Part shown: piece after piece, positions 17,587-59,471 of the stretch | How positions within the stretch are numbered: position 1 is the stretch's first letter | Layout of the letters: the number at the start of each line of letters is the position of its first letter | NCBI GenBank assembly: GCA_949130485.1 | Contig: OX422186.1 | Location: forward strand, 12,343,241 to 12,407,240 | From: Agelas oroides | Lineage: Eukaryota > Porifera > Demospongiae > Agelasida > Agelasidae | Reading direction: 5' to 3' | Length of the DNA: 64,000 nt | Program-made: the position numbers and the translations under genes | Notes under the pieces: generated by a model | Told to the model about the DNA's origin: nothing | Database searches by the model: none | Seen by the model: only the letters and a program-made list of their open reading frames with translations

Positions 17587-20500
17587 TGGTGCTGACTGGT
17601 CCTGCGTCTCCATGGGCTGCGACTGCTGTGATGGAGGTGGAGGTGGTGGCTCCGCCGGTTCAGCCGGTGCCGGGGTGGCTGTCAGCTCGACCAGCTTACT
17701 ACCACTGCCTGTGGGGGTCACTGGGGAACAGACAAGGTGTACCTCAAGTTGGCATTAATTGGAGTGGTGGTTGTCATGGTTACCTTCCCTGGACTCCTCC
17801 TCTCTAGTGACCTCCTCTACCTTTGGGGCGGGTGGAGGGTTGGGTAGGTCCTTTGTTACATCACTGAGGAGGTGATTATGAGTGCATGGGCAATGAATGA
17901 CTAACGGACATGACTATACAATTTGTCGACATTTCTCCATTGACAGAACTTGTGACTTACTCCTCCTCTTCTTCTTCCCTGACTTTGGCGGCAGCACGAC
18001 GACTGCGACTGAGAGAAGAGAGAGAGGAAATGGATGAGGGGTCAGTTAAACCCTCAGTTCCTATGGTTGTCCACTTTATCCCCAAGTTACTGCCAACCTC
18101 TTTCGTGCTTTTTTAGCTTGGTTCTCTGGAGGTGAAGGAGAAGGTGTACGCCTTCTCTTGCGACACGCTCACGGCGACCTGGAGGGAGGTGGTGGAGGGT
18201 CAACAGTGGAGAAAAGAGTGAGTCAATATGTTTGATCATCTCTATTACCTAGCTCAGGAGCCTCCTGTTGAGGGGAGGAAGGGGGAGGTGGGGACGCCTT
18301 GTAAAACTTCCTTCGTGTCAGCCCTGCAGCAAACAGTAACAGTCATGCATTTTCAGTTCATGTCAGCCTCCAAGTGCCAGAGGTCAGCCAAGGACACACA
18401 GGGTGGGTATTTGCTTCAAACAACAGATGAGTTGGTACTTACCGAGGTAGGGAGCAGTTTGCTGTAGCCGGCTGTCCTGCACACAGTATTGGAGACATAC
18501 AATGAACATGTGCTCTTAGTCGTGCAATACCTCTTGAGAGTAGGCCAAGAGGAGAGGGTAGTACAGACAGATCAGCCCGAGAACAAAGCTACTAAGCTAA
18601 TTCCCGCCCCCTCCCTCACTGCAGCCATCAGTTCATAGAGCTAACTCCCTGCCCCCTCCCTCACCACAGCCATCAGTTCATAGTCTTCCTCGTTCATCCA
18701 CTCATTGAAACTATCAGTGTCCTCCAGCCATCTGCTGCTCACCCACCACTGTGAGGGAGGAGAAGGCGTGGTCTCGGGAGCTGCCCCACCCACCTCCGCA
18801 TGACGTACCACACTATCATAGCTGTCAGGGTAGAACCACCAGTGAACCAGAACACTCTTGCCACGAACCTGTAGCAGACGCACATACTCCTCTGGGACAG
18901 AGAGGAGGGGGTGAGACAAGTATGGCAGAAGGGAAGGGACAATAAGGTAGGTGTGTTTGTGAGAGGGTTACCTTCAGGATTAGGATTAGGGGGCGCGGGT
19001 GGGTAGATGACATGTGTTGCATCCTCCACTGACTCAACCACCTCACCCTGAGTACAGCTGTCAAAGGTCAATACATCAAAATAGTTGTGAACACCGTGGT
19101 TCTATTCTGAGCCTCATTGGATGCACACGTGGTGCCACAAGAGCTAGTCTCAGAACACTGTATACACCTCACACACGTGGTGCCACAAGAGCTAGTCTCA
19201 GAACACTGTATACACCCCACACACCTGGTGTCTGAGCCTCATTGGATGCACACGTGGTGCCACAAGAGCTAGTCTCAGAACACAGTACACACCCCACACA
19301 CCTGGTGCCACAAGAGCTAGTCTCAGAACACCATATACACCTCACACACCTGGTGTCTGAGCCTCATTGGATGCACACGTGGTGCCACAAGAGCTAGTCT
19401 CAGAACACCATATACACCCCACACACCTGGTGTCTGAGCCTCATTGGATGCACACGTGGTGCCACAAGAGCTAGTCTCAGAACACCATATACACCTCACA
19501 CACCTGGTGCCACAAGAGCTAGTCTCAGAACACTGTATACACCCCACACACCTGGTGCCACAAGAGCTAGTCTCAGAACACTGTATACACCCCACACACC
19601 TGGTGCCACAAGAGCTAGTCTCAGAACACTGTATACACCTCACACACGTGGTGCCACAAGAGCTAGTCTCAGAACACTGTATACACCCCACACACCTGGT
19701 GCCACAAGAGCTAGTCTCAGAACACCATATACACCTCACACACCTGGTGTCTCTTGACAGACTCAGTGAGCTGTTGCATGAGGGTGGGGCCCACGGTTGG
19801 GTTGATGAAGACCCGTGGAGGTTTCCATGTCTTGCTTTCAGCAAGGTCTTTGTGGATGCTAATGAACAGCTCCAGCCCTCGGTCCATGCGGGAGGGAGAG
19901 TGGAAGTCAAACCGACGCCTGCAGAGGAGAGAGCTCTGAACGCTTACCCGTGGGGTTTTCAATCGATACCACACACATCGCCATTGATGTACTCTACAAG
20001 TTATACACCAAGATAGCAGCTTGAGGTTAGTATGCATAATTGATGATATGGACCACGTGTACAATAGCTGGTATAAGGAAGTGTCTCCATCAGTTGAATA
20101 TCAAGTATAGCGTACCACGACTGTTGTGTCTTCATGCGGTACACAGTGGTCATGATGTGACACAGTGCACCACCAGGAGTGAGGTCTTCAAATAAACTAG
20201 CCTTTGAGGATAGATAGACAAATAACACACAGTAGTTTTCTTCAAACAGTGAAGCTTGGATAAACATGCATGGAGTCATGTAACCTGATTTTCATGTGAA
20301 AGTGTGGAGCGAAGGGGGGGGGGAACTGCTGGTCCTGACCATTTCTTCCTCTGCATACGTATACAGGATGCATTTGGAAAACACGTTAACAATCCTCCCT
20401 TGACCAAACTCCCATACGTGAGTTCCCACATGCAGCCATGCATCTTTCCCCCCTTATCCCATCCCACCCTCTTCCTAGCCTCCTGAAACTGAAGCATGAT

Positions 20501-20773
20501 GCATGTGAGGGGGGAAGACAGTGTCTTGTTGCCGGGAGGGTCAGCCTGTGTGTACTGGATGTGCATTATAAACAAAGAAGGTTACACGTCACTGCGGCCA
20601 CAGTGGTGTGCATTAACTAGAATCACATGCTTCCGAGATCGGCCAATCAGCTTATTGCCCACCTTTCTGCAGTTCTTCAGAAGCCACTGCCTGACAGGCT
20701 CAAACTTTGCAATCGTATCGCTTGACTCAAAGTATTTAGGATCAGGAGCGCCGCTCTTCTTACGGACTGCCAT
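17587..20773 (-). CDS. SMARCC (BAF155/170, Moira) N-terminal region; SWIRM and SANT missing
   Basis: Core subunit of SWI/SNF chromatin remodelling complexes. Minus-strand exons 20663-20773, 20480-20554, 20116-20201, 19744-19918, 18972-19047, 18665-18891, 18443-18476, 18249-18323, 18098-18167, 17961-18008, 17784-17863 and 17587-17720 join in phase. The start MAVRKKSGAPDPKYFES is the family N-terminus; later pieces include FDFHSPSRMDRG, VLVHWWFYPDSYD, FNEWMNEEDYE and the basic RRRTPSPSPPENQAKKARKR stretch. One expected 51-nt exon (DAFGKHVNNPPLTKLPY) lies at 20367-20417 on the opposite strand. After 17587 the SWIRM and SANT domains should follow; instead a Pro/Gln exon and KANSL1-like exons come next, in compatible phase. 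Either the gene is truncated or fused, or the assembly dropped a block here. Confidence 0.88.
19085..19743 (-). repeat. Minisatellite starting at the SMARCC exon-5 splice donor
   Basis: At least eleven copies of a roughly 43-48-bp unit fill the start of the intron. Read on the minus strand, exon 5 ends CACCAG and the intron begins GTGTGTGAGG; the array units repeat the same CACCAGGTGTGTGAGG, so each unit carries six exon bases plus the donor. Confidence 0.9.
20367..20417 (+). CDS. SMARCC exon present in inverted orientation
   Basis: On the plus strand, acceptor tatacag is followed by 17 codons giving DAFGKHVNNPPLTKLPY and then donor gtgagt. In SMARCC proteins this block directly follows the LQFQE sequence, which is encoded at 20480 on the minus strand, and precedes the segment encoded at 20116-20201 on the minus strand. 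So exon order is right but this exon is flipped. As drawn it cannot be spliced into the gene; skipping it would keep frame (51 nt). Confidence 0.85.
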
Positions 20774-20954
20774 CTCTTGCTTCTCCCTCTTCAAAACAGA
20801 TGATGTGACGGCAAGCACAATAATACGTTGCAGAACTTCTGTGTAGTTCACTTTAGTATGCTTTATTTTGTCCTCGCGCCTGCCCTCTTCAGCATCACGC
20901 ATGCGCACACGGTCACATGTTAGCCACACCTCCTCATATTTAGTCGAGCCGGTT

Positions 20955-21050
20955 TTTTGATTAGGTTATGAGATCACACTCCCAGATCATGTGATCATAC
21001 TCCCCGGATCATGTGACCATGCTCCTGGATCATGTGACCATGCTCCCGGC
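20955..21050 (+). repeat. Short tandem repeat around GGATCATGTGACCATGCTCC
   Basis: Four diverged 20-24-bp copies about 180 bp upstream of the SMARCC start codon, inside its likely promoter region. Each contains the palindrome-like ATCATGTGAYCAT. Confidence 0.75.
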
Positions 21051-29114: not shown

Positions 29115-30115
29115 AAGAAGAAGGGGGTGCTGTGAGGTGGTGGATTATGGCAGAGTGTTTCTCATGGGGTGTGGTGGGGTGGATTATGGCAGAGTGTTTC
29201 TCATGGGGTGTGGTGGGGTGGATTATGGCATAGTGTTTCTCATGGGGTGTGGTGGGGTGGATTATGGCAGAGTGTTTCTCATGGGGTGTGAGGTGGTGGA
29301 TTATGGCAGAGTGTTTCTCATGGGGTGTGGTGGGGTGGATTATGGCATAGTGTTTCTCATGGGGTGTGGTGGGGTGGATTATGGCAGAGTGTTTCTCATG
29401 GGGTGTGGTGGGGTGGATTATGGCAGAGTGGTTCTCATGGGGTGTGGTGGGGTGGATTATGGCAGAGTGGTTCTCATGGGGTGTGGTGGGGTGGATTATG
29501 GCAGAGTGGTTCTCATGGGGTGCTGTTAGTCTCACGTAGCCAGACTCTCGCAGGGAGGGAGAGTCTGGTCAACTGCCCATATAAGACTTGTTCCAACACC
29601 CACCCCAACTGGGGTGGGCGATAAGTGCCTTCACGGCCGCAGTGTTTATATCTGCAGCTATAATAGCGACGTGTCAAGTGAACGAAGCCTCACTCACACT
29701 AATTATCGCGAAGCAATTTAAACTCTGTGGTTCGCAGCTACTTATCGCCCACCCCAGTTGGGGTGGGTGTTGGAACAAGTCTTATATGGGCAGTTGACCA
29801 GACTCTCCTCCCTGCGAGAGTCTGGCTACACGAGACTAGGGTGCTGTCGGGTGGTGGCAGAGTGTTTCTCATGGGGTGCTGTCGGGTGGTGGCAGAGTGT
29901 TTCTCATGGTGTGCTGTCGGGTGGTGGCAGAGTGGTTCTCATGGGGTGCTGTCGGGTGGTGGCAGAGTGGTTCTCATGGGGTGCTGTCGGGTGGTGGCAG
30001 AGTGGTTCTCATGGGGTGCTGTCGGGTGGTGGCAGAGTGGTTCTCATGGGGTGCTGTCGGGTGGTGGCAGAGTGGTTCTCATGGGGTGCTGTCGGGTGGT
30101 GGCAGAGTGTTTCTC
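29115..30115 (+). repeat. About 36-bp minisatellite, interrupted by a MITE
   Basis: Left block (29137-29526) has units with GGATTATGGCAGAGTGTTTC and TCATGGGGTGTGGTGG; right block (29839-30115) has the shorter GGTGGTGGCAGAGTGGTTCT and CATGGGGTGCTGTCGG version. The two variants meet only at the inserted element at 29527-29838. Confidence 0.9.
29527..29838. mobile_element. 312-bp TAGYCTCG-family MITE inserted in a minisatellite
   Basis: The arms are about 100 bp each and nearly perfect (left begins TAGTCTCACGTAGCCAGAC, right ends with its complement), including an inner CCACCCCAACTGGGGTGGG palindrome. It is flanked by GGGTGCTGT on both sides (29518-29526 and 29839-29847), a 9-bp duplication that is also part of the surrounding minisatellite unit. 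Confidence 0.8.
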
Positions 30116-30230
30116 AACTTCTCAGGCTTAAACGAGGCCACAGCACCCCATGAGAACTTCTCGTGGGGTGCTGTACAAACTGCGAAAGATGTGGGCGGGT
30201 CTGAGAAATTGTGGTCTCAAAGGCGGCTGA

Positions 30231-30749
30231 GGCCTGTCACGAAGTAACTTGCCCCCCGAAGTATAGTGTCCCCCAGGGGCAAGTTACTGCGAAGTAAACC
30301 GTCCCCCTTTGAAGTCATTTGCCGAGACGGAGGAAGGCAGTGTAGAGGCCGAAGAGGCTACGTTTTGTTGTTTTATGTACTACATAACTGTTGTTATAAT
30401 TACTTGTTGATTGGTGGAATACTTTCTTCAAACATACTTGTGATCAAAATACTTTTGTGTGCTGGACTCTCTGCTTCATTGTAGATTTTCCGCCGGACAC
30501 TCTACTTCGAAGTAAGTTGTCCCCAGGACACTCTACTTCGAAGTAAATTGTCCCCCGGACACTTTACTTCGAAGCAAACTGTCCCCTCACAAGGGGGACA
30601 ATCTACTTCGAGGGGGTCACTTTCCTTCGAAGCAAAGTGTCCGGGGCGGACAGTTTGCTTCGAATAAAGTGTCCGGGGGACAGTTTACTTCGAAGTAACT
30701 TGCCCCCCGGACAATTTACTTCGGGGGGCAAGTTACTTCGTGACAGGCC
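30231..30749. mobile_element. Foldback element built from TTCGAAG palindromes
   Basis: The ends GGCCTGTCACGAAGTAACTT and its complement form terminal inverted repeats of at least 33 bp, extended outward by GGCTGA/TCAGCC with a 1-bp offset. The right half (30490-30735) is a dense set of short blocks such as TTTACTTCGAAGTAAAYTGT and GTCCCCCGGACA in both orientations. Confidence 0.65.
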
Positions 30750-30791
30750 GTCAGCCACACCCACAATCCGAGACCACGCGGTTGTGGCAAG

Positions 30792-31567: not shown

Positions 31568-34500
31568 GGGGCGTGCAAGGGATGGTGGGGCGGAGAGCGA
31601 GGTGAGAGTGGTGCAGGGTGGCGTCGAGGAGACAGACAGCTATGTCAAGTAGGTGATTTGTAGTCCTCATGTCTTTTGAACTGTGACCTTTCAACTTCAT
31701 TTTTGTGACAGAAAGGGCAACCTCAAGCGAATCTTCAGACCGAAGGATTCCATCCTTACGTAAGTTCCTTGTGGCACCCCTTGTGAAACATGTGACTACC
31801 CCCTGTCCCCCACCCCAGGGAGCTGACCTCAACTGACAAGAATATGGAGGCAATGTATCACGTATTTATGGTGATGGTAATCACAGCTATTGCATACTCT
31901 CTGCTCAAAGATACCGTTGAGGCTGGAGAGTGAGTTGGGAACTTCATTTAGCCATCACAGCTTTCATGATGACAGTGTACAAGTAGTACCCCTCTCCCTT
32001 CACACACACAGACCTAGTGTGGACATGGCCTACTATTTCTCAGGTTTTGGCCCTGCCCAACAGCAGTTGCTCGCCTGCCTGGTTTGGCTCCCTCTTCAAC
32101 TGGCAGCACTCACTATCTACCCAGCCTTCAAGGTACGTGCTGCACACACACTGTGCCTTCAAGGTACGTGCTGCACACACACTGTGCCTTCAAGGTACGT
32201 GCTGCACACACACTGTGCCTTCAAGGTACGTGCTGCACACACACTGTGCCTTCAAGGTACGTGCTGCACACACACTGTGCCTTCAAGGTATGTGCTGCAC
32301 ACACACTGTGCCTTCAAGGTATGTGCTGCACACACACTGTGCCTTCAAGGTACGTGCTGCACACACACCGTGCCTTCAAGGTGCGTGCTGCACACACACT
32401 GTGCCTTCAAGGTACGTGCTGCACACACCGTGCCTTCAAGGTACGTGCTGCACACACACCGTGCCTTCAAGGTACGTGCTGCACACACTGTGCCTTCAAG
32501 GTACGTGCTGCACACACACCGTGCCTTCAAGGTGCGTGCTGCACACACACCGTGCCTTCAAGGTACGTGCTGCACACACTGTGCCTTCAAGGTACGTGCT
32601 GCACACACACCGTGCCTTCAAGGTGCGTGCTGCACACACACCGTGCCTTCAAGGTACGTGCTGCACACACACCGTGCCTTCAAGGTACGTGTTGCACACA
32701 CACCGTGCCTTCAAGGTGCGTGCTGCACACACCGTGCCTTCAAGGTACGTGCTGCACACACACTGTGCCTTCAAGGTACGTGCTGCACACACACCGTGCC
32801 TTCAAGGTGCGTGCTGCACACACACTGTGCCTTTTCTGCTTCTGCCACAGGTCTGGGAGTTTCTTCGCCCCAGAGCCCCTCTAATCACTGACATTACCTT
32901 CATCATTCTCACCATTGTGTACAACTTGACGGCACACACAGTTGTGGTATCTTCAATTATGACCTTTAACTTTTTCCCAGTACCTTCCGCTGTACTCTCT
33001 GTAGAGCAGGTCAGTCCTTACCCTCAGTCTAGTCACCAGTCTGTCTGTTATACTGGCTATTTCCGGTCTGCACAGCTACGCTTCACTATGAAAAGCTACT
33101 CATTCATTCGTGAGAATGCATACAAGGTGCTACATCCATGGAACAAGGATGACGACTCGGGTAATCCTCTCTGGCTGTGTCTCACACAATCGTAAATGCA
33201 CATGTCATACTCATACTCATGCACGTGCAGGTCCTACAATGTGGTATGCTGGTCAGATGGAGCCTCAGGTCGGCTCCTTCTCGCAGTATCTCTACTTTCT
33301 CTTTGCCCCGACTGCTCTTTACAGAGACAACTACCCTAGGTAGGTACACATGGCAGGGAGGGGGCAGAGGGACACTACCCTAGGTAGGTACACATGGCAT
33401 GGAGGGGGCAGAGGGACATGGGGACATGTTCTTTGCTCATTTGTGCAGAAATCCACGCATCAGAAAACTGCGAGTCCTTTCTCACTTGACCAAGGTATGC
33501 ATGCAGAGACATAGCAGCTTACTTCAGCTAACCTGTCAACAATAACTTGCAGTATTATACAGCACATTAACACTGCGAATGACTTCACTTCCCCATACAG
33601 TGTGCAATATGCGTTGCATTTGTGACCATCTTGTGCAAGGAGATATTCGCCAGCTACCCAGTCCGGTCAGTGGTAGGTAATCCACAAGTGAGCCAACTTA
33701 GGTTACACTGACCATCTACCTCACAGCCAAAGCAAGACTCTTGCGTACACATTTCTGACGTGCATGCTGTGGGGTCTTGTGCTTCAGTTCATGGCTGGCT
33801 ACTTCTTCCTACACTCCTGGTCCAATCTCTTTGGGGAGTTGCTCAGATTCGCTGACAGAAGTTTCTATTCTGTGAGTGTTTCCTTACCTGCCACAGAGGC
33901 ACACTGATGTACCCTCGTCTGTTGGTGTACAGGATTGGTGGACCTGCACCTCCTTCTCCTCCTTCTACCGCAAGTGGAACCTCCTGGTCCACGACTGGAT
34001 CAAAGCCTACATCTACCAAGACCTCAAAGATGTAAGTCTCCTGTAGCTCAGTTTGAGGCACGTGAGTCTCCTGTAGCTCAGTTTGAGGGACGTGAGTCTC
34101 CTGTAGCTCAGTTTGAGTGACGTGAGTCTCCTGTAGCTCAGCTTGAGGGACGCGAGTCTCCTGTAGCTCAGCTTGAGTGACGTGAGTCTCCTGTAGCTCA
34201 GTTTGAGGGACGTGAGTCTCCTGTAGCTCAGCTTGAGGGACGTGAGTCTCCTGTAGCTCAGCTTGAGGGACGTGAGTCTCCTGTAGCTCAGCTTGAGTGA
34301 CGTGAGTCTCCTGTAGCTCAGTTTGAGTGACGTGAGTCTCCTGTAGCTCAGTTTGAGTGACGTGAGTCTCCTGTAGCTCAGTTTGAGGGACGTGAGTCTC
34401 CTGTAGCTCAGTTTGAGTGACGTGAGTCTCCTGTAGCTCAGTTTGAGGGACGTGAGTCTCCTGTAGCTCAGTTTGAGTGACGTGAGTCTCCTGTAGCTCA

Positions 34501-35899
34501 GTTTGAGTGACGTGAGTCTCCTGTAGCTCAGCTTGAGTGACGTGAGTCTCCTGTAGCTCAGCTTGAGTGACGTGAGTCTCCTGTAGCTCAGCTTGAGGGA
34601 CGCGAGTCTCCTGTAGCTCAGCTTGAGGGACGTGAGTCTCCTGTAGCTCAGCTTGAGGGACGTGAGTCTCCTGTAGCTCAGCTTGAGGGACGTGAGTCTC
34701 CTGTAGCTCAGCTTGAGGGACGCGAGTCTCCTGTAGCTCAGTTTGAGGCACGTGAGTCTCCTGTAGCTCAGTTTGAGGGACGTGAGTCTCCTGTAGTTCA
34801 GCTTGAGGGACGTGAGTCTCCTGTAGCTCAGTTTGAGTGACGTGAATCTCCTGTAGCAAAGATGGCCTTATACCACATACAACCAGACAACTCTATTTTT
34901 GCCACTTTGATGGCTGAGGTGTCTATTGCCTCATGGACCTTTTGTGTAGGTGTGGCTTAGTAAACCACAAAGCTCAAGAGAGCATATCATAGCAACAGAG
35001 CAGGCCCGTAGGCAGGGGGGGTCCGCTCGAACACCCCTTTGACTTGCAAAAGTTTTTATGTACCGCTTAACTGTACATTTTAAGTGTCCCACTGTTTGAA
35101 AGTGGTCCACTAGTCACGCTGCTTTTGAGAATCACTGCTGTCCAAACGTGTCTGGTTGCAGCTATGTGAGTTTGTTCACGGAGCAGCGTGGAACGCCGGT
35201 GTATGCTGTATACTACGCTGCGATGAAAGGACACGCGTAAATAATCACTAGTTCAGGTGCTCGAAGTTGTCCTTCTAGTGATGTCACCCCACCTGCTGTT
35301 CTGCCAAACTTACTACCTTCTCGAAGTCAGCTGGCTTAGCAAATGCATACATGGACAGCCAAAAATTGGATGAGATACTCCGCGAACCATGCAGCTACTA
35401 TAGCTCTGCTTCTGTCCCAAAATGGCCTCAGAACCAATCTCAGAGCATCTAATTTCTAAAAATTTCCTGGGGGAACATACCCCCAGACCCCCCTAGTCTT
35501 GCATGCTTATGCATGCATACAGACATCCATGTAACCCCCCTTACATAAATCCTGGCTATGGGCCTGCAGAGTGTTACTATTTGTTGCCTGTCACATCCTT
35601 CACCGGCACCTACTACTAGCCGCACAAATGCACCAATCTAAGAGTGTATACACTGAAGTCCTATGTGCACAAGTAACACTAGGGTGTGATTGACCCACAT
35701 AATGGCTTTCTTCTTCAGCTATTCCAAAGTAAGACTTACAACCGCATCGCCTCCATCCCTACCATCCTCATCTCTGCTGTCTTCCATGAGTATGTGCTCT
35801 GGGCACCAGTACGATTTGTTTTGCCTGTCCTTCTCCTCATGTTCAGCTCATTCGGAGGTTAGCAAATTAGCCTTTTATTGAATTAAGATTGTACTAAGA

Positions 35900-37278: not shown

Positions 37279-39854
37279 TCAAACTCTTTTCCTGAGTTTA
37301 TCAGTTTCAAATTGAGCATCGTCTGCTAGAAAACTGAACAGACATGCAAGAATAAGTTGCAGTTGGCACTCTGGCTGGCTGAGTGGTAGTACTGACCTGT
37401 ACCAGATGAGGGGGAGGGGGACGGTGGAGAGGTGCCAGAGAGAGTGGGCATCCAATACCCACCAGAGTGGAGGAAAATCCAGCAACTGTAGAAGAGAAGG
37501 AGGAGGAGGAAGGTGTGTGATGACTTAGACCATCTTGCACCGATACTGAAAGAGTCCTTCCTGGCAAGTGTTGAACAGGCACACCTCAAGGGAGACAAAG
37601 AGTGTTGTTGATAGCACGACGGCGGCACACTTCCACACATACCAACGCTGCTTCCTGTTCTGGAGACAGACCATATCACACACCAAGATCAGGTAGTACG
37701 CAGGGATCATGAGTCCGTACCTTAACACACCAGAGCAGCCACACAACTGTGTAGAGAACTCCTGCAAGACAAACTTGACCAGCTCAGGGTGTCTGAAGTA
37801 CACGTACAAGCCAGGACCTACCTGCACCCACACTGGCAGCCATGTTATAACCATAGTCAAACTTGATGAATGCCAAGTAGTAGACATGGGTAGCATAGAG
37901 AGCGACCCAGACAGCAGCATACACCCGGTGCCTGTGTAATGACAATGTCAAGTAGTGTTCTTGACTCCATCAGACCTACGCTTACCATGTCACTGCCTCC
38001 GGTCCAGTAATCCTGCAAGAGGAGAGGAGAGATAGAGGTGATAGAAGGGAAGGGTTATGAGAAGGAAGGAATGAAGGAGGGAGGGAGAGAGTGGCAAGAG
38101 TACAAACAGTTAGGGCTACCTCACAAACTGCAGCAGGAGTGCTGAGACTATCATGGACGCTGCACTGAAGTAGTCTAGCCGCTCTGTCCAATAGAGGTCC
38201 CGAGAATGAAACACAGCTGACCAGAACCAGGTGTGCATGCTCACCTGCAGGTTACTTGATACTAAAACAGTTGCTACACTGCGGTAGCGGGTTACCCACA
38301 TCACAATACCCACCAGAACTGTACACACACCACACTACTCACAGTGACATCACTCACTATGAACTGTACCAACACCACACCACTCACAGTGACATCACTC
38401 ACTATGAACTGTACCAACACCACACTACTCACAGTGACATCACTCACTATGAACTGTACCAACACCACACTACTCACAGTGACATCACTCACTATGAACT
38501 GTACCAACACCACACTACTCACAGTGACACCACTCACTATGAACTGTACCAACACCACACTACTCACAGTGACACCACTCACTATGAACTGTACCAACAC
38601 CACACTACTCACAGTGACATCACTCACTATGAACTGTACCAACACCACACTACTCACAGTGACATCACTCACTATGAACTGTACCAACACCACACTACTC
38701 ACAGTGACATCACTCACTATGAACTGTACCAACACCACACTACTCACAGTGACACCACTCACTATGAACTGTACCAACACCACACTACTCACAGTGACAT
38801 CACTCACTATGAACTGTACCAACACCACACTACTCACAGTGACATCACTCACTATGAACTGTACCAACACCACACTACTCACAGTGACATCACTCACTAT
38901 GAACTGTACCAACACCACACTACTCACAGTGACACCACTCACTATGAACTGTACCAACACCACACTACTCACAGTGACATCACTCACTATGAACTGTACC
39001 AACACCACACTACTCACAGTGACACCACTCACTATGAACTGTACCAACACCACACTACTCACAGTGACATCACTCACTATGAACTGTACCAACACCACAC
39101 TACTCACAGTGACATCACTCACTATGAACTGTACCAACACCACACTACTCACAGTGACATCACTCACTATGAACTGTACCAACACCACACTACTCACAGT
39201 GACATCACTCACTATGAACTGTACCAACACCACACTACTCACAGTGACACCACTCACTATGAACTGTACCAACACCACACTACTCACAGTGACATCACTC
39301 ACTATGAACTGTACCAACACCACACTACTCACAGTGACATCACTCACTATGAACTGTACCAACACCACACTACTCACAGTGACATCACTCACTATGAACT
39401 GTACACACACTATAGTGTGGTAGGGATATGTGGTAGGTGCTTGCACTTTGAAGTGAACAAAACCGTACAGGATGGTGGCTGCATTCAGCACAGAGAACAG
39501 CGCAGAAGCCGGCTCCTGCACTCCCAAGATCCGCACAAAGGGCCACTGCAGATCGGTTGTAAGATCTGAGGTGCATCCACTCCAACACAGTCCCCACTGG
39601 TGCTACCCCACCTTGCCATAGAACTGTCTGACCCTCCGTCCCAGGCGCACATCCTCAGCAGTAACCCTGTGCATGCACTGGTACTGGCAGTCGTCCTGGC
39701 ACCGCCAACCCAACAGGCGCAGGGGAAGAGAAAGAGAGCAGTCATCAGCCACACAGAGGGACACACAGGAACGGAAGTCATGTGAACGGTCTCCCACACT
39801 GCAAGATGCCAGGGGCAACAGCAACAGCAGGGCGGCCAGCAGAGCTACTGCCAT
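37279..39854 (-). CDS. PGAP3: PGAP3, GPI-anchor phospholipase A2
   Basis: Golgi seven-helix enzyme that removes the unsaturated sn-2 acyl chain from GPI anchors during lipid remodelling. Exons on the minus strand: 39612-39854, 39393-39545, 38120-38244, 37986-38012, 37822-37931, 37721-37761, 37585-37659, 37397-37485, 37279-37333; all phases fit, giving 305 residues (human about 320). A signal peptide ([21 protein letters not shown]) opens the protein, followed by the Cys-rich luminal part with [18 protein letters not shown]-superfamily residues are visible: [24 protein letters not shown] and [17 protein letters not shown]. The second intron is filled by a minisatellite that copies its own donor. 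Divergent from DDX23, with 251 bp between start codons. Confidence 0.93.
38325..39404 (-). repeat. 45-bp minisatellite copying the PGAP3 exon-2 splice donor, about 24 copies
   Basis: On the minus strand exon 2 ends GTACAGTTCATA and the intron begins GTGAGTGATGTCACT; GTACAGTTCATA|GTGAGTG recurs in every 45-bp unit, so 12 exon bases are carried along. A second GTGAGT occurs per unit. The period is a multiple of three and stop-free, so the array reads through on both strands. Confidence 0.95.
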
Positions 39855-40105: not shown

Positions 40106-43100
40106 ATGGGTTATGAGCGTGACAGAGATCGCTCGAGGTCGCCTCATAGGAGCGAGGGACGGGACCACGACAGTCATGCACGCAACGATCGCCGGAGATC
40201 ACGGTACACTGTCCTGTCATACGTGTCTTCCTGCAGTGACAGAGATAATTACGTCTCTATGCGACATCGTGTGCACATAGATAGTGGAGTAGTAGGACCG
40301 TCTTATTAAATACTTTACTATCAATGGTGACACCATGTGCGTGCACTGTGCGTGTTTCTGTGCACAGTGGGCTTCCAGATGGGGGAGGAATTCTGTACAC
40401 CCAACAACTCGTCCCACCATCCATTTTTTGATCGCTTGCATTAAGCACAATGAGATGGCTTATGTGATCAAAGCTGGCACTTTAGTCAATTTCAGAATAT
40501 TCTAGTTTAGTAGTCGGCTGCAAGTGGCAAGGAACTGGGGCTGTGGGAAGTCTCATAAACACGAAAATTGCTTCCATGGGAACTAAATCATGCCAGCATG
40601 AAGTTGATGGTAGCCCTGCAGGGAAGATCATTGTCTGGAAGTCCCTTCTTCCAGAACTTAGCCTTACATGCAGTACCCATGTTCTGCAGGTCGCACAGCC
40701 CCAGTAGCCGACGCAGAAACAGATCTCGAAGCAAAGAAAAGAGGTGAATGTTGTGTCTATTCATTGGTGGACTTTCTTTCTGTGAACCCCTTAATGGTAG
40801 GTATAGTAGAGTGTGCTTTCCATTTGTGTTGATTGGGGGGGGGGGGGGGTTTGCTGTAGGTCTTCTATTCGTCGCTCCCGATCTCCTCGCCGAAGGTCCA
40901 GGGAGCGTGGAAGGGGGAGAAGGTAAGGCTACTCTAGGAGTGAAAATGTCAAGGGCTTATTTATCATGTACCAGCATTGCATGCAGGTCCAGAAGTCGAG
41001 ACAGGAGGTCCAGAAGTCGAGACAAGAGGTCCAGAAGTCGAGAGAGAAGGTCCAGAAGTCGAGACAGGAGGTCCAGAAGTCGAGACAGGAGGTCCAGAAG
41101 TCGAGATAGGAGGTCCAGAAGTCGAGACAGGAGGTCCAGAAGTCGAGATAGGAGGTCCAGAAGTCATGAGAGGTAGGTGGGACTTTAGTGGGCAGGTACA
41201 TGTACATGTGTGGCTGTTCCTTTCAAACCCGTTTTCCTGGTGCGCATGTAGGTCACACAGTCGAAACCGAGGAAGCATTAAGTGGCAGGGCCGAAGCAAA
41301 TCAAGGTTCCTTTAGTCCTCCTCTTCTTCTGTTGCCAGACAAAATGATGACCCTTTCCTCTCTCCAGCCCGATAGCCAAAGAAGAGGAGGAGGAGGAGGA
41401 GGCACAGCCACCAGCCAAAAGACAGGTCAGTGCTGTATAACCTGGTATGTTCCAGTACAGCCTGTCACTGTCTCACCAAGCTCCCCCACATACAGCCCCT
41501 GTCACTAGAGGAGATGATGGCCAAAAAGGAGGAAGAGGCCAAGGCAGAGTCCAAAGTGAGCATTGTCTCAAGAGCAGACATGTAACTTGGCACTTTCCTC
41601 CTCCCTCTCCTCTCTCCCCCAGCCGGTGTTTCTGAGCAAGCAAGAGCGTGCAGCCCTTGCTCTGAAGCGCCGCCAGGAGCAGGTGGAGGAGCAGCGACAG
41701 AAAGAGCAGCAGGAGAGGGAGTCACGACTGCGCTATCTCGAGACTGCCCAACAGCCCTCCAGAGACCGGCGGTGGGAGAACAGTGAACAGGTGTGTGTGT
41801 TTGGTGTGTGGCATCTGAGGCAGGGTTCGGGTGGTGTTCCAATCACTGGCATGCCTCTGCAGAGCCGTGTGGAGCGTGACAAACAACGGGAGGAGACACT
41901 GCTTGTGAAAGACAAGGAAAAGGAGATGGATGCAATCAAGGTTTGTGATGTGTTCACTGTCGATCCAACTTCATGTGTACATGTGCTGGCAGATGAGGTA
42001 CTTGGGAGGGGAGAAGAAGAGGCGAAAGATGAGAAGGTTGGCAGACCGCAAGTTTGTGTTTGACTGGGACACTGGCGAGGACACCTCAGTGGACTTCAAC
42101 CCAATGTGAGCCTCCTCCCTCTGTACCACTGTCACTGTGAGCCTCCTCCCTCTGTGCCACTGTCACTGTGAGCCTCCTCCCTCCCTCTGTACCACTGTCA
42201 CTGTGAGCCCCCTCCCTCTGTACCACTGTCACTGTGAGCCTCCTCCCTCTGTACCACTGTCACTGTGAGCCTCCTCCCTCTGTGCCACTGTCACTGTGAG
42301 CCTCCTCCCTCTGTGCCACTGTCACTGTGAGCCCCCTCCCTCTGTACCGCTGTCACTGTGAGCCCCCTCCCTCCCTCTGTACCACTGTCACTGTGAGCCT
42401 CCTCCCTCTGTACCACTGTCACTGTGAGCCCCCTCCCTCTGTACTGCTGTCACTGTGAGCCTCCTCCCTCCCTCTGTACTGCTGTCACTGTGAGCCTCCT
42501 CCCTCCCTCTGTGCCACTGTCACTGTGAGCCTCCTCCCTCTGTACCGCTGTCACTGTGAGCCTCCTCCCTCCCTCTGTACCACTGTCACTGTGAGCCCCC
42601 TCCCTCTGTACCACTGTCACTGTGAGCCCCCTCCCTCCCTCTGTACCACTGTCACTGTGAGCCCCCTCCCTCTGTACCACTGTCACTGTGAGCCTCCTCC
42701 CTCTGTGCCACTGTCACTGTGAGCCTCCTCCCTCTGTGCCACTGTCACTGTGAGCCTCCTCCCTCTGTGCCACTGTCACTGTGAGCCTCCTCCCTCTGTA
42801 CCACTGTCACTGTGAGCCTCCTCCCTCTGTACCGCTGTCACTGTGAGCCCCCTCCCTCTGTGCCACTGTCACCGTGAGCCTCCTCCCTCTGTGCCACTGT
42901 CACCGTGAGCCTCCTCCCTCCCTCTGTGCCACTGTCACTGTGAGCCTCCTCCCTCCCTCTGTACCACTGTCACTGTGAGCCCCCTCCCTCTGTACCACTG
43001 TCACTGTGAGCCCCCTCCCTCCCTCTGTACCACTGTCACTGTGAGCCTCCTCCCTCTGTGCCACTGTCACTGTGAGCCCCCTCCCTCTGTGCCACTGTCA

Positions 43101-46100
43101 CCGTGAGCCTCCTCCCTCTGTGCCACTGTCACTGTGAGCCTCCTCCCTCCCTCTGTGCCACTGTCACTGTGAGCCTCCTCCCTCCCTCTGTACCACTGTC
43201 ACTGTGAGCCCCCTCCCTCTGTACCACTGTCACTGTGAGCCCCCTCCCTCCCTCTGTACCACTGTCACTGTGAGCCTCCTCCCTCTGTGCCACTGTCACT
43301 GTGAGCCTCCTCCCTCTGTGCCACTGTCACTGTGAGCCTCCTCCCTCCCTCTGTGCCACTGTCACTGTGAGCCTCCTCCCTCTGTACCACTGTCACTGTG
43401 AGCCTCCTCCCTCTGTGCCACTGTCACTGTGAGCCTCCTCCCTCTGTGCCACTGTCACTGTGAGCCCCCTCCCTCCCTCTGTACCACTGTCACTGTGAGC
43501 CTCCTCCCTCTGTGCCACTGTCACTGTGAGCCTCCTCCCTCTGTACCACTGTCACTGTGAGCCTCCTCCCTCCCTCTGTACCACTGTCACTGTGATCCTC
43601 CTCCCTCCCTCTGTACCGCCGTTACTGTGAGCCTCCTCCCTCTGTACCACTGTCACTGTGAGCCTCCTCCCTCTGTACCACTGTCACTGTGAGCCTCCTC
43701 CCTCTGTACCAATGTCACTGTGAGCCTCCTCCCTCTGTACCACTGTCACTGTGAGCCTCCTCCCTCTGTGCCACTGTCACTGTGAGCCCCCTCCCTCTGT
43801 ACCGCTGTCACTGTGAGCCTCCTCCCTCTGTACCGCTGTCACTGTGAGCCTCCTCCCTCCCTCTGTACCACTGTCACTGTGAGCCCCCTCCCTCTGTGCC
43901 ACTGTCACTGTGAGCCCCCTCCCTCCTTCTGTGCCACTGTCACTGTGAGCCTCCTCCCTCTGTGCCACTGTCATGTCACCTACAGCTACAAGACCCGACA
44001 CCATGCACAGTTCTTTGGGCGTGGTCACCTGGCTGGTATTGACATTAAGGTACAGATAGGACATATCAGATGGTGAACCATCCGTGAAGTGGTCCCACCT
44101 CTTCTTCCTTTCAGACACAAAAGCGTGAGCAGTCCAAGTTCTACCTTCAGCTCATGGAGAAGAGGAGGACAAATGAACAAAAGTCCAAGGAAGCGTAAGT
44201 GCTGTCACAATGTTGTATGTAGAAAGAGCTCTGTGTAGCCACAGGTCTGTGTAGCCACAAGACTGTCAGTGTAGCCACAAGTCTGTGTAGCCACAAGACT
44301 GTCAGTGTAACCACAAGTCTGTCAGTGTGGCCACAAGTCTGTCAGTGTAGCCACAAGTCTGTCAGTGTGGCCACAAGTCTGTCAGTGTAGCCACAAGTCT
44401 GTCAGTGTAGCCACAAGTCTGTCAGTGTAGCCACAAGTCTGTCAGTGTAGCCACAAGTCTGTTGGTGTAGCCACAAGTCTGTCAGTGTAACCACAAGTCT
44501 GTCAGTGTGGCCACAAGTCTGTCAGTGTAGCCACAAGTCTGTCAATGTAACCACAAGTCTGTCAGTGTAGCCACAAGTCTGTCTGTGTAGCCACAAGTCT
44601 GTCAGTATAGCCACAATCTGTGTAGCCACAGTCTGTGTAGCCACAAGTCTGTCTGTAGCCACAAGTCTGTCAGTGTAGCCACAAGTCTGTCTGACCTCTC
44701 TTCCCTTGCTGCAGTGACCGTGAGGCGAAAGAGCTGAAGAAGGAGAGTCAGGTGAAGTGGGACGAGCGCCACTGGACAGAGAAGAGCATGGAGGAGATGA
44801 CTGAGCGGGACTGGCGGATCCTGAAAGAAGACTTCAACATCAGCACCAAGGGGGGACGCATACCAACCCCCATCCGCCACTGGAGAGAGGCACCATTCTC
44901 GCAGGAGATACTCTCCGTGATTGAGTCCCTGGGGTATGAGGTGAGGGGATGACTGTAGTAGGATGAAGCAGTGCGTGTGTGATTGTGACCTTTGTCCTCG
45001 GGAACCCAGCAGTGCATGTGTGATTGTGACCTTTGTCCTCGGGAACCCAGTAGTGCATGTGTGATTGTGACCTTTGTCATAGGGAACCCAGTAGTGCATG
45101 TGTGATTGTGACCTTTGTCCTCAGGAACCCACACCCATTCAACGCCAGGCAATCCCAATTGGGCTCCAGAACAGGGATATCATCGGCATTGCTGAAACTG
45201 GTAAAGGAAATGAGAGGGGGGTGGGTGTATGTGAGTGCATGTAGGTCACTGCTTCATAGCCTTCATTCCCTCACCCTCCACCTCCCTCTCCCCTCATCCC
45301 CTTACCCCTCCACATCCCTCTCCCTTCCCAGGCAGCGGTAAAACTGCTGCCTTTGTCATTCCTCTTCTGACGTGGATCACAAGCCTTCCCAAAATCGTCA
45401 GGTAAAAGAACACCCACAAAACCACACACATACCCTCCTTCCCCCACACCCTCACCTGTCATCACCCCCCCTCACCTCATCACCCCCCTCACCTCTCATC
45501 ACCCCCCCTCACCCCCCTTACTGTCTATAGGGACTCTGAGTCAGACCTGGGGCCGTATGCCATCATCCTGGCACCCACGAGGGAGCTTGCTCAGCAGGTG
45601 AGCACACTTATGAATGCTCTCCTCCACAACCACCAGCTGTCTGCCCTCTGCCCTAGATTGAGGAGGAGGCACAGAAGTTTGCTCGTCCTCTTGGCATTCG
45701 GACTGTGTCTGTAATTGGTGGGCTGTCTCGAGAGGACCAGGGCTTCCAGCTGCGGCTGGGGTGTGAGATTGTCATCGCAACCCCAGGGAGGCTTATTGAT
45801 GTGCTTGGTACGTAGGCAGTAGTATCAGCTACATTCTCTGTGTTTTTGGCTACCCTGGTGTGACAGTACATGCCTCCCATCAAACTCTCAATCTACAACT
45901 GTCTTTGCTCCCCATAGAGAACCGCTATCTTGTGTTAGCACAGTGCACTTACGTTGTGTTGGATGAGGTAAGGTGGGGAGGGGGAAGGGAAAGTGGCCCA
46001 GGAAGTGGTTGTGTTCCATTCCTCTCCTACAGGCGGATCGCATGATTGATATGGGGTTCGAGCCAGAGGTGAAGAAAATACTGGAGTATTTGCCGGGTGT

Positions 46101-48170
46101 GTTTTGTGTAATAACTCCGCTGTGCGGTGAGAGACACTGTGTAGCATCTAGGCCTGTGCGGTGAGAGACACTGTGTAGCATCTAGGCCTGTGCGGTGAGA
46201 GACACTGTGTAGCATCTAGGCCTGTGCGGTGAGAGACACTGTGTAGCATCTAGGCCTGTGCGGTGAGAGACACTGTGTAGCATCTAGGCCTGTGCGGTGA
46301 GAGACACTGTGTAGCATCTAGGCCTGTGCGGTGAGAGACACTGTGTAGCATCTAGGCCTGTGCGGTGAGAGACACTGTGTAGCATCTAGGCCTGTGCGGT
46401 GAGAGACACTGTGTAGCATCTAGGCCTGTGCGGTGAGAGACACTGTGTAGCATCTAGGCCTGTGCGGTGAGAGACACTGTGTAGCATCTAGGCCTGTGGT
46501 TCATTGATTGGCTCTCTCCCTCAAAATGTGGGCAATGCCAACTAGTTTCAAACAAGCTCTTTTCCCCTAGTGAGCAACATGAAGCCTGACACGGAGGAGG
46601 CGGAGGATCCAGAGAAGATGCTGCTGAACATTGAGTCCTCCCAGCACAAGTACCGCCAGACTGTCATGTTCACCGCCACCATGCCTGCCGCTGTGGAGCG
46701 TATGGCTCGCTCCTACCTGCGAAGGCCAGCTGTTGTGTACATTGGATCTGCTGGTATGTGGGTGTGCATTGGTGTGTAGCTGTGCATTGGTGTGTGGCAA
46801 CATGTCTACAAGCTGTAGACAGTCTTGGTGTACATCATTCTGCTCTGATTGCAGTGTGAACACAATCTGTATGCTCCTTAACTCTGGCTCCGCTGATCTC
46901 GTCCCTCCGTCCCTCTTCCTCCCGCAGGCAAACCAACTGAGGCTGTGGAGCAACAGGTGTTGATGGTGTCTGAGGCAGACAAGAGAAAGAGGCTGCTCTC
47001 CCTCCTTGGCAGCGGCATCGACCCTCCCATCATCATCTTCGTCAACCAAAAGAAAGGGGCTGATGTCCTTGCACGTTCCCTTGAGAAGATGGGGGTGAGC
47101 CACAGTTCGTACATGTATGGTCATGCCTGAAGTAGCAAGTATCTGCCCTTCCTCTCCTCCTCCCAACCTCTTCTCTTCCTCTCCCCCCCCCTCCCTCCCC
47201 TACACAGTATCGAGCTGCTACCTTGCACGGTGGGAGGAACCAGGAGCAAAGGTCTGTGAGCAGTAGCCTGGTCGGCTGCCGTCCCACGCCACTGTGTGGG
47301 CAGTAGCCTGGTCAGCAGCCATCCCACGCCACTGTGTGGGCAGTAGCCTGGTCGGCTGCCGTCCCACGCCACTGTGTGGGCAGTAGCCTGGTCGGCAGCC
47401 GTCCCACGCCACTGTGTGGGCAGTAGCCTGGTCGGCTGCCGTCCCACGCCACTGTGTGGGCAGTAGCCTGGTCGGCAGCCGTCCCACGCCACTGTGTGGG
47501 CAGTAGCCTGGTCGGCTGCTGTCCCACACCACTGTGTGGGCAGTAGCCTGGTCGGCTGCCATCCCACGCCACTGTGTGGGCAGTAGCCTTGTCGGCAGCC
47601 GTCCCACGCCACTGTGTGGGCAGTAGCCTTGTCGGCAGCCGTCCCACGCCACTGTGTGGGCAGTAGCCTGGTCGGCTGCTGGCCCACGCCACTGTGTGGG
47701 CAGTAGCCTGGTCGGCTGCTGGCCCACGCCACTGTGTGGGCAGTAGCCTTGTCGGCAGCCGTCCCACGCCACTGTGTGGGCAGTAGCCTGGTCGGCTGCT
47801 GGCCCACGCCACTGTGTGGGCAGTAGCCTGGTCGGCAGCCATCCCACGCCACTGTGTGGGCAGTAGCCTGGTCAGCAGTCGTCCCACGCCACTGTGTGGG
47901 CAGTAGCCTGGTCGGCTGCCGTCCCACGCCACTGTGTGGGCAGTAGCCTGGTCAGCAGTCGTCCCATGCCACTCTCTTCCACTCTGCAGGGAATATGCAT
48001 TGGCTAGCTTGAAGCAAGGAGCCAAGGATATTCTGGTGGCCACGGACGTGGCAGGCAGGGGCATTGATATCAGGTGAATGTTACCCCCCCATCTCTACCT
48101 CCTCCCACCCTTACATGCATGTGATTGTGCAGGTGGAGAGCTTTCATAAGAGCTGTATTGTACCTCATCT

Positions 48171-48239
<69 letters not shown>

Positions 48240-49070
48240 AAGGGATGTGTCCTATGTGATCAACTATGACATGGCTAAGAACATTGAGGACTACACACAC
48301 CGCATCGGTCGCACAGGAAGGGCTGGAAAGACAGGTGTAGCTGTGACCTTCCTCACAAAGGAAGATGTGGGCGTGTACTATGACCTCAAACAGGTAGAGT
48401 TGACAGCTGGTCACATTCCACTGTGGGAGGCTGATTAGCATTTCAGTAGTTTCTGTGTATAACTAGGCTCCATCATTGTTCCTTTGTCCTTGGTTGTATC
48501 ATGGCGTAAGGTACTGCTCACAGTTTCTGCATACAAGACAGACTATACCTGCCATGCTCAGTAGCAACTACATTGAAGCCACCCACAACATAACACACTC
48601 TCCATGTACATCAACATGCACTACACGCCCAGCACTACCCTCCCCACTCCCTCCTATACTAACAAGCACAAAGCATAGTTGGCAAAATGGCAGGGTGGTG
48701 TGAATGTGTTGTGGTGTCGTTCCCATCTTGTTTGGCTGGTTTTTGAGGGTTCCATCCCTACATGTGCTTGTTTTCATTCGGTAAAACTTTTTTGTCACTT
48801 GAGCTCCATCTTTGTTCCTTTGTGCTTGGTTATATACTAGCTAGGCTTCCCATTGAAGTGGCCTAGCCCAATAGACTAGGTGATTTCTAAACACTAAAAT
48901 CTTTGTGCAAACAATTTTGAGTCTTGTGTGTTATTCATGTTCAACAGGCGTTGAAGGAGAGTCCAGTGAGTGTGTGTCCCCCGGAGTTGGCCAACCATCC
49001 TGACGCTCAGAACAAGCCTGGCACCATCGTGCAGAAGAAACGCCGAGATGAAACAATCTTTATCAACTGA
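40106..49070 (+). CDS. DDX23: DDX23/PRP28 DEAD-box spliceosomal helicase, 25 exons
   Basis: U5 snRNP helicase that displaces U1 from the 5' splice site. Coding exons begin at 40106, 40690, 40860, 40987, 41252, 41368, 41496, 41623, 41863, 41993, 43986, 44115, 44715, 45125, 45332, 45531, 45657, 45918, 46033, 46571, 46928, 47208, 47990, 48243 and 48948; all phases fit and give 843 residues (human 820). The N-terminus is an RS domain. Helicase motifs in order: Q motif [13 protein letters not shown], motif I AETGSGKTAA, Ia [17 protein letters not shown] (split by an intron between E and A), [30 protein letters not shown]. The end [15 protein letters not shown] and KKRRDETIF is family-typical. At least five introns hold minisatellites, two beginning at the splice donor. 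Confidence 0.96.
40987..41172 (+). repeat. Coding 21-bp repeat in the DDX23 RS domain
   Basis: About eight copies of AGGTCCAGAAGTCGAGACAGG make up one exon and code for RSRSRDR heptads. Frame-preserving copy changes would alter RS length. Confidence 0.9.
42106..43975 (+). repeat. 31/35-bp minisatellite starting at a DDX23 splice donor, about 58 copies
   Basis: Exon 41993-42105 ends CCCAAT and the intron starts GTGAGCCTCCTCCCTCTGTA at 42106. The unit GTGAGCCYCCTCCCTCTGTR plus CCACTGTCACT then repeats for 1.87 kb to within 11 bp of the acceptor of the next exon (43986). Some units have an extra CCCT. Almost every unit begins with GTGAGC. Confidence 0.95.
44215..44695 (+). repeat. 20-bp minisatellite, DDX23 intron
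   Basis: About 24 copies of GTGTAGCCACAAGTCTGTCA between exons ending at 44194 and starting at 44715. It begins about 20 bp after the donor and does not copy it. Confidence 0.95.
44970..45137 (+). repeat. 41-bp tandem repeat ending in a DDX23 splice acceptor
   Basis: Four copies of a unit with GTGATTGTGACCTTTGTCCT then CGGGAACCCA. The last copy is the working 3' splice site, TTTGTCCTCAG|GAACCCA; in the others the AG is GG or AG shifted (CATAGGGAACCCA). Confidence 0.9.
46110..46497 (+). repeat. 34-bp minisatellite, DDX23 intron
   Basis: About 11 near-identical copies of CTGTGCGGTGAGAGACACTG plus TGTAGCATCTAGGC. Each has a GCG|GTGAGAG donor-like site, but the genuine donor at 46097 (GTGTGTTTTG) is not part of the unit. 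Confidence 0.95.
47252..47968 (+). repeat. 40-bp minisatellite from a DDX23 splice donor, about 18 copies
   Basis: The intron opens GTCTGTGAGCAGTAGCCTGG, a diverged first unit, followed by copies containing CAGTAGCCTGGTCGGCTGCC and GTCCCACGCCACTGTGTGGG. The array fills nearly all of the intron between exons ending at 47251 and starting at 47990. Confidence 0.93.
48175..48237 (+). repeat. (CA)n microsatellite at a DDX23 splice acceptor
   Basis: About 60 bp of CA ends five bases before the AG of the exon starting at 48243, so this acceptor has no conventional polypyrimidine tract. Confidence 0.95.
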
Positions 49071-52910: not shown

Positions 52911-52929
52911 AAATACCACCCCTTGACTG

Positions 52930-57773: not shown

Positions 57774-57862
57774 AGACAGGACAGCCAATAGATCTGAACA
57801 GACACACATACAAAGTGTAGCACTTCAGTATGTTTTCATGATCACTGTAGTTCTGGCACATG

Positions 57863-59471
57863 CTACCACACACGGGTGGGAACACTGTCAGTGGCGGTCA
57901 AAACAGTGGCATCTTCTAGAGCCATGGTGCCCCTAAGGGCTGCCCTCACTGCCTCCACCCCCTCCCCCCTCAGTGCTGCTGTGGGGAGGATGTGAGAGAA
58001 GAGGGGGAGAGGGGAGGAGTCGGGTGAAACACCCCCTCCTGCTGGAAGGAGGAGAAACACTAGTGAACCATGTAACCAAATCATGTGTACCTGGAGGGAG
58101 CATACCATTTGTTAGTCCCTGGACCAGTGTCTTAAGGGCTGGCACTGCCCCCTCCACATCCATCTTGTTAGCCACCAGCAGTGAGGGGCGCAGAGAAAGA
58201 CCACACTGGTAACACTCCAACTCCTGAAGGATTGAGGGAAAGTAGATTGACATGTTGACTGCACACGGTGGTATGTCTCACCTTGGCCAGTAGACCGACT
58301 GTCTGCAAGGCATTGCGGTGTGGATGGTTGGTGGAGAGCTGGAACCCTCCCACATCCACCACGTACAGCAGCACCTTGGTACGCTCTACATGACGCAGAA
58401 ACTGATGGCCCATCCCCACATTGACATGGGCGCCCTCCACCAGACCTGGGAGATCGGCTATTTTGATTGGTCGTGAGTCACCTGACATCACCCCCACATG
58501 TGGCCGGACAGTAGTGACTGTGAAACAAGATACATCATATGTCAAGGTCCAGGGCATACCCACAAGTAGTGCAGTACTAAAAATTTATGTTGACTGAATA
58601 GAGCAGGGTTAATTATTAACCACCGTCTGACCACTGGGCCACCAGTCACCCAGTACTTACAGGGGTAGTCAGCGACCTTGGGTGTTGCATTGGAGAGAGC
58701 TCCCAGGAGAGTGGACTTGCCAGCATTAGGAAACCTGAAAACCATATGTCTGCATGTCAGGCTAAGAAGGTTTGCTCATAACTAAATACGCCCCTCACAC
58801 TGTCAACATTGCACACACAGTCCCTCACACTGTCGACACTGCACACACAGTCCCTCACACTGTCGACATTGCACACACAGTCCCTCACACTGTCGACATT
58901 GCACACACAGTCCCTCACACTGTCGACATTGCACACACTGTCAACGTTGCACACACAGTGACTCACCCCACCATTCCAACGTCTGCAATCACCTTCAACT
59001 CCAACACAAAGACCCCCCTTTTTCCAGGCTGTCCCTGATGGTTCACTGTAGCGGCACTCCCCCCTTTCCCCCCATGCACAAGCTCCACATTAGCACCCAC
59101 AACATCCAGGTCACATAGCTACAGAGACATACATAATCTCCTCTGTGTGTGTGTGTGTGTGTGTCGGGGTGACTTACCTGCACACCTCTGCCATCCTGCA
59201 CCACAGTTCCTGGGGGCACTGTGATGGTGAGATTCCTCCCCTTCTCCCCCCACACCCTACCCCGGACGCTGTGACCCCCACTCTCTGCAATGAAGCGTCT
59301 GCTTTCTCTGCGTGCAATATCCTCAAGTGCACTCCCCTGGGTACACACCACCTTCACACTCCCTCCGTCACCCCCGATTCCTCCCAGCCGCTGAGACCCT
59401 TGACCACCAGCCCCACCACGAGCATAGATCCTCACACGGTCCACAAGATGACCCTGCAGAGGTACGTTCAT
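57863..59471 (-). CDS. GTPBP10: GTPBP10, Obg-family mitochondrial ribosome-assembly GTPase
   Basis: Mitochondrial GTPase needed for large-subunit maturation. Exons 59178-59471, 58967-59118, 58661-58734, 58282-58517, 58106-58223 and 57863-58041 join in phase. The Gly-rich Obg domain is at the N-terminus (ARGGAGGQGSQRLGGIGGDG). G motifs: G1 GFPNAGKST with the first Gly split by an intron, G3 DLPGLVEGAH, G4 NKMD. GMGHQFLRHVERTKVLLYVVD is the family block after G3. The C-terminus HILPTAALRGEGVEAVRAAL is the G5-like region. The first exon may have an upstream partner, because CTCTGCAG precedes GGTCATCTTGTGG within it; a mitochondrial presequence is not obvious. Confidence 0.92.
58793..58966 (-). 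repeat. 30-bp minisatellite starting at a GTPBP10 splice donor
   Basis: Read on the minus strand the intron starts GTGAGTCACTGTGTGTGCAA + CGTTGACAGT at 58966; after one partial copy the unit GTGAGGGACTGTGTGTGCAA + TGTCGACAGT repeats about five times. The functional donor is thus the first unit. Confidence 0.92.

Follow-up and report, generated by a model that had tools for sequence, protein, structure and literature searches.

Arrays of tandem repeats that begin at the 5' splice site (donor) of an intron are described here for five genes of the sponge Agelas oroides, all of which lie in one window, the whole stretch of 64,000 nucleotides (nt) that was analysed (positions 12,343,241-12,407,240 of contig OX422186.1, termed C4 below). 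The closest described system is the minisatellite of the human gene IFI6, which reportedly has a unit of 12 bp in ~26 copies and is said to begin near the end of exon 2. The minisatellite of IFI6 (6-16, G1P3) was reportedly the subject of a 1995 paper by Turri, Cuin and Porter (Nucleic Acids Research, NAR 23:1854), a title cited in PMC4526556, PMC2572611 and PMC2915984. In the first of these sources, downstream repeat units of the IFI6 minisatellite serve as donors (PMC4526556). Likewise, the sponge arrays consist of short units that run from or near the end of an exon, resemble the donor and supply donor-like sites. Unlike IFI6, which is one gene, they are found in at least seven genes and two near-end regions and have longer units, and their internal donors are putative ones.

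Two other systems are comparable in part. Human variable number tandem repeats (VNTRs) with a guanine-plus-cytosine (GC) content >60% show a 21-fold enrichment in the terminal 5 Mb of chromosome arms (PMC7608644). Similarly, minisatellites with units >15 bp are concentrated near chromosome ends in the sponge, but here many of them reach a splice site and occupy introns that are very short; the enrichment in human applies to VNTRs with GC >60%, whereas GC was measured here per block. Intron gain by tandem duplication across a splice boundary has been recorded (PMC4974935). As in fission-yeast introns across 24-bp AGGT repeats, a boundary-crossing tandem duplication can stay silent in the protein, but in yeast the duplicated sequence gives rise to a new intron, whereas here an existing intron grows and its 3' splice site (acceptor) lies outside the array. 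An earlier reading of the window from its letters (the sequence-only reading) knew of no named class for such arrays; human IFI6 is on record, and no description of donor-anchored arrays as a class was found in the literature searched, most subscription papers being outside reach.

Tandem arrays in the window were located with Tandem Repeats Finder (TRF), which returned 90 rows. The eight arrays proposed by the sequence-only reading were read at each site and were found independently by TRF (a slash marks the donor boundary):

19106..19749, minus strand, SMARCC array in intron 19743-19048: 48-bp and 77-bp units, CACCAG/GTGTGTG with 6 exon bases, donor at 19743

32124..32833, plus strand, SOAT array in intron 32133-32850: 31-bp unit, 23 copies, 9 exon bases GCCTTCAAG then GTACGTG

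33330..33418, plus strand, SOAT array in intron 33340-33448: 44-bp unit, 2 copies, 10 exon bases ACTACCCTAG then GTAGGTAC

34032..34857, plus strand, SOAT array in intron 34032-35718: 30-bp unit, 27 copies, starting at +1 (TRF start 34035)

38316..39404, minus strand, PGAP3 array in intron 39392-38245: 45-bp unit, 24 copies, 12 exon bases GTACAGTTCATA then GTGAGT

42105..43973, plus strand, DDX23 array in intron 42106-43985: 31-bp unit, 58 copies, running from the donor

47252..47973, plus strand, DDX23 array in intron 47252-47989: 40-bp unit, 18 copies, TRF start at +3, first unit diverged

58792..58966, minus strand, GTPBP10 array in intron 58966-58735: 30-bp unit, 5 copies, first unit diverged, starting at +1

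The exon bases in the units of SMARCC, SOAT and PGAP3 were all as previously described. Starts at 34032, 42106 and 58966 coincide with the donor (0 or -1); the array at DDX23 47252 starts at +3. For GTPBP10, the main TRF row (58792-58942) alone would start at +24, and a second row (58826-58966) reaches the donor. The SOAT 33340 array does start across the donor but has two copies only. The first unit of SOAT 34032 reads GTAAGT, and GTGAGT is found in 23 of the 27 following units. In seven of the eight introns the array stops 12-71 bp short of the acceptor, and therefore most of the intron is filled; the SOAT 34032 array is followed on its 3' side by 861 bp of non-array sequence. In all eight introns the acceptor is outside the array. 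Two further arrays were found on contig C5, 150-180 kb from its end:

L029:2438-3022, fasciclin gene array, donor at 2462: 34-bp unit, 17 copies, made of 24 exon and 10 intron bases

L034:8690-8878, KRR1 array, donor at 8691

The fasciclin unit has the largest exon share found. The evidence supports the view that in these arrays the exon-intron junction itself was duplicated in tandem, and that this happened independently in no fewer than seven genes (five of the window, two of the other contig); the earlier interpretation is thus partly supported.

The introns could also have been born by tandem duplication of an exonic AGGT (the Rogers model) or spread by introner-like elements, since the unit may span exon and donor and AGGT is present at SOAT 32133, SOAT 33340 and SMARCC. 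This origin is very improbable, as none of the eight arrays of the window includes the acceptor of its intron, the units differ between genes and exon bases are absent from the unit in several introns. An origin from lariats or rolling circles, with a unit from +1 to the branch point, was rejected by reasoning alone, since five units carry 6-24 exon bases.

The donors were examined through gene models, for which 32 introns of seven genes were placed by their exon-end and exon-start strings. In all eight introns, joining the donor of the first unit to the acceptor leaves an open frame with the expected protein. For example, the 16 exons between 17 curated introns of DDX23 give 556 amino acids with no stop, and the product contains the Pfam domains DEAD, Helicase_C and DDX23-like. 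Likewise, Pfam supports SOAT (MBOAT), PGAP3 (Per1, spanning the junction), GTPBP10 (MMR_HSR1) and SMARCC (PF16496). Because the spliced frames are open and the Pfam domains match, the donors named earlier are right at the level of homology. The ends of one SOAT intron, near 33667-33727, were picked by frame. A home-made gene finder recovered 24-27 of the 32 curated donors. It also gave spurious genes, part of them on the opposite strand, and its introns were therefore kept only for recognisable proteins; few genes were predicted in interior blocks. Three gene names are presumed ones, namely CFAP-like (55813), Lunapark-like and AMDHD2, the last with a Pfam match to Amidohydro_1 below the cut-off.

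The end of C4 (12,572,161 bases) is 165 kb away from the window, contig ends being taken as chromosome ends. The GC content of the window is 0.51, and that of two interior 100-kb blocks 0.44 and 0.43. There are 42 TRF rows (period >=15, >=3 copies) in the 64 kb against 15 and 5 in the two interior blocks, counts that include overlapping rows, and TRF rows cover 19.9% of the window against 8.5% and 10.3%, the interior coverage being mostly long units. Hence, minisatellites are enriched over the interior in a window located near a contig end. Out of three other near-end blocks, two are GC-rich (0.50, 0.49) and have many arrays. Five other contigs (loci L002-L006) carry, close to their ends, matches of 234-302 bp to the region of the SMARCC exon and array junction (window 19700-20000). 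The arrays of these SMARCC-related copies range from about one unit up to 3.4 kb, a big difference in length between paralogous arrays; for the copies on C22 and C18 the letters at the junction were compared. One reading offered for the copies is that they may reflect segmental duplication near chromosome ends.

The swollen introns are best explained, with a probability of roughly 75%, by ordinary tandem duplication filtered by splicing tolerance, with no mechanism directed specifically at splice sites. Near a chromosome end, where the DNA is GC-rich and prone to minisatellites, short duplications would arise in exons, introns and intergenic DNA alike, blind to splice sites, and replication slippage or unequal exchange, the presumed motor, would lengthen some of them. 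Selection, as the presumed filter, would retain those duplications that leave the mRNA intact, and in introns nearly any unit would pass. A unit that straddles the donor would be tolerated because use of the first donor, which we infer for the RNA, removes every copy; exon bases duplicated together with the donor remain silent if the first donor is used. Duplications that straddle the acceptor are probably less tolerated because an earlier acceptor copy could be used. With introns of ~50-130 bp and units of 20-58 bp, a large share of the surviving arrays would touch a splice site, and repeated expansion would then fill the intron.

The placement of arrays was counted in a curated set of 23 intronic arrays in recognisable genes (period >=20, >=3 copies, TRF score >=100). 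Nine are at or across the donor (+4 or before), four abut or cross the acceptor (within 4 bp) and ten are interior. Six of the nine include >=1 exon base and three start at 0 to +4; the count falls to eight if GTPBP10 is taken by its main TRF row alone. The exon bases per donor unit are 24, 12, 10, 9, 6, 1, 1, 0 and 0, plus one start at +3, a varied share as for random breakpoints. Among the introns taken as array-free, 16 of 19 measure 52-131 bp (median 82), and because introns here are mostly ~50-130 bp, a duplication of 20-58 bp often meets a splice site. This was modelled by randomly placing duplications, as long as the units observed, on introns from the 19. With both sites crossable, the model predicts 6.7 arrays for the donor and the same number for the acceptor (P = 0.19 for >=9 and 0.35 for >=8 at the donor, 0.16 for <=4 at the acceptor); if the collapsed length of each individual intron is used instead, the prediction for the donor becomes 6.1 (P = 0.12). 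The argument that ordinary intronic satellites have no reason to start at +1 is not supported by this comparison of 9 of 23 with the 6-7 expected; donor starts follow from short introns together with tolerance of junction-spanning duplications.

Several arrays stand outside the 23. Those with <3 copies are SOAT 33340 (-10), DDX23 46752 (-2), CBP 14902 (+4) and AMDHD2 27276 (+11), and further DDX23 45263 and CBP 13549, 14492 and 17727. Coding arrays and the arrays of the C3 end block and interior blocks were also left out, as were intergenic or unassigned arrays that satisfy the thresholds, in the window at 6440, 7220, 8411, 15160, 20978, 23508, 29139, 29839, 30481, 30612 and 31052 and off the window at L029:1-204, L029:8616-8698 (an AIF-like gene) and L033:9199-9422. 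The CFAP-like array at 55813 and two Lunapark-like arrays were retained despite weak support.

Functional 5' splice sites might instead be hot spots that seed duplication through transcription, R-loops or a DNA motif. Such donor-directed mutation agrees with the nine donor against four acceptor arrays, with the >=6 exon bases seen in five donor arrays (including the two-copy SOAT 33340) against one acceptor array, and with starts at 0 to +4 slightly over expectation. It is nevertheless rather unlikely, as the placement model that allows crossing needs no hot spot, selection also predicts the asymmetry between donor and acceptor, and arrays occur in exons, in intron interiors and at acceptors as well. 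Furthermore, a triple tandem AGGTRAGT has 184 hits genome-wide against 157 for the reversed letters, and by-eye counts of arrays on contigs C1-C4 are 12 against 9. Tandem copies of the donor consensus thus show no clear excess over the reversed control, which weighs against the suggestion of the sequence-only reading that donor sequence as such is the seed, though not against functional donors.

That reading had also listed its arrays selectively. The same DDX23 gene has three interior arrays (introns 44195, 45402 and 46097) and one over an acceptor, and other genes add acceptor-side cases:

44230..44691, plus strand, DDX23 interior array in intron 44195-44714: 16/20-bp units, +35 from the donor

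45449..45513, plus strand, DDX23 interior array in intron 45402-45530: 20-bp unit, 3.4 copies, +47

46120..46498, plus strand, DDX23 interior array in intron 46097-46570: 34-bp unit, 11 copies, 100% matches, +23

44967..45131, plus strand, DDX23 acceptor-overlapping array in intron 44941-45124: 41-bp unit, 4 copies, 6-7 exon bases

L030:2860-2964, CBP acceptor-side array: 26-bp unit, 4 copies, 100% matches, ending 2 nt before the exon

L030:7363-7496, CBP acceptor-side array

L033:2501-2749, Lunapark-like acceptor-side array, ending 2 nt before the exon

40985..41165, plus strand, DDX23 coding array: 21-bp unit of 7 codons (RS repeat)

The array at 44967-45131, in which the true acceptor reads CCTCAG and the other three copies CCTCGG, CCTCGG and CATAGG, is a counter-example to donor exclusivity. 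The exon 3' of the CBP array at L030:2860-2964 is confirmed by homology to CBP/p300 chains, and the array is read as a young acceptor-side one. An apparent donor start at S5 12860 was ruled out, as homology to CBP made it an acceptor-side array. The six recognised coding arrays have units of 45, 21, 39, 15, 36 and 51 bp, all multiples of three, against 9 of 24 intronic arrays (the curated 23 and SOAT 33340). This contrast is compatible with duplication that is itself blind and is filtered by its effect on the product.

Other observations weigh against blind duplication filtered by splicing. If the donor may be crossed but the last 20 nt of the intron are protected, the model expects 12.9 donor arrays and zero on the acceptor side; four were seen there, and the model fails on that side. 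If duplications fall inside the intron only, with no crossing, 3.2 of 23 are expected at the donor (P = 0.002), and therefore junction-spanning duplication must be permitted. Starts at 0 to +4 number three against 1.0-1.7 expected (P 0.08-0.22), so a mild donor preference may exist. Two arrays collapsed to one unit give introns of ~39 and 43 bp, below any curated intron, so the original intron body must have been lost. Pre-array lengths were guessed and some offsets are approximate, and among the 'array-free' introns 45201-45331 has a two-copy repeat and 48074-48242 a dinucleotide run. The near-end block C3:19.24-19.26 Mb (GC 0.444) has fewer arrays. Finally, the rule of three is partly circular because coding arrays were recognised by open frames, which favours such units, and their list is not exhaustive.

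Selection may retain reserve donors, as the sequence-only reading proposed, or internal donors may make isoforms as in IFI6. In line with this, the donor hexamer is kept in most later units of SMARCC, SOAT 32133, SOAT 34032, PGAP3 and DDX23 42106, and internal sites whose score equals or exceeds that of the true donor number 8 in SMARCC, 17 in SOAT 32133, 2 in SOAT 34032 and 50 in PGAP3 (SOAT 33340 was outside the scoring). The earlier figure of up to about 58 donor-like sites needs qualifying: at DDX23 42106, 56 of the 57 later units start exactly with GTGAGC, but in the context ACT/GTGAGC their best score is 1.3 against 3.9 for the true donor. In GTPBP10 and both DDX23 arrays every internal site scores below the true donor; the units of DDX23 47252 and GTPBP10 (GTGGGC, GTGTGA) differ from the true donor and score lower. 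Across seven arrays, no significant extra conservation of internal donors was found (2 of 24 variable unit positions fall in the hexamer, 4.0 expected, P = 0.19). A stop is met within 15 nt of the intron in five of ten cases (SOAT 33340, SOAT 34032, DDX23 42106, GTPBP10 and fasciclin), and the first stop comes at 27 nt in SMARCC, 55 nt in DDX23 47252 and 103 nt in KRR1. The PGAP3 intron, by comparison, is open for 1092 of 1148 nt and that of SOAT 32133 is stop-free in the gene's frame; because they read open, these are the places to seek internal donor use. On balance, selection for reserve or internal donors is quite unlikely. A combined possibility, that functional donors are recurrent seeds of near-end duplication, coupled to transcription or splicing, and that some arrays (PGAP3, SOAT 32133) are spliced internally so that repeat number tunes protein length, is likewise improbable.

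The 45-bp units of PGAP3 (39392-38316) read open as a 15-residue repeat, which could give protein repeats if internal donors were used. Elsewhere in the window, an intronless open reading frame (ORF) at 10915-11622 on the plus strand encodes an HhH-GPD (AlkA-like) glycosylase that is 67-69% identical to five loci of Defluviicoccus (Alphaproteobacteria), and it sits between a 2.5-kb array and an assembly N gap (11981-12180). It may be either a bacterial fragment misjoined in the assembly or a horizontal transfer. By eye, inverted ends around ~300 bp at 29521-29838, within a minisatellite region (29139-30116), resemble a small DNA transposon, and palindromic repeats of the TTCGAAGTAA type at 30480-30760, upstream of SOAT, resemble a small repetitive element.

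What stands out is the density of cases. In one gene neighbourhood, introns with 2 to 58 copies of their own donor provide numerous and exceptionally clean natural experiments. Such arrays could show how the spliceosome selects the first donor when a long series of almost identical ones follows, and how short introns are lengthened by mutation close to chromosome ends, with the caution that simple geometry already predicts donor-anchored arrays in short introns.

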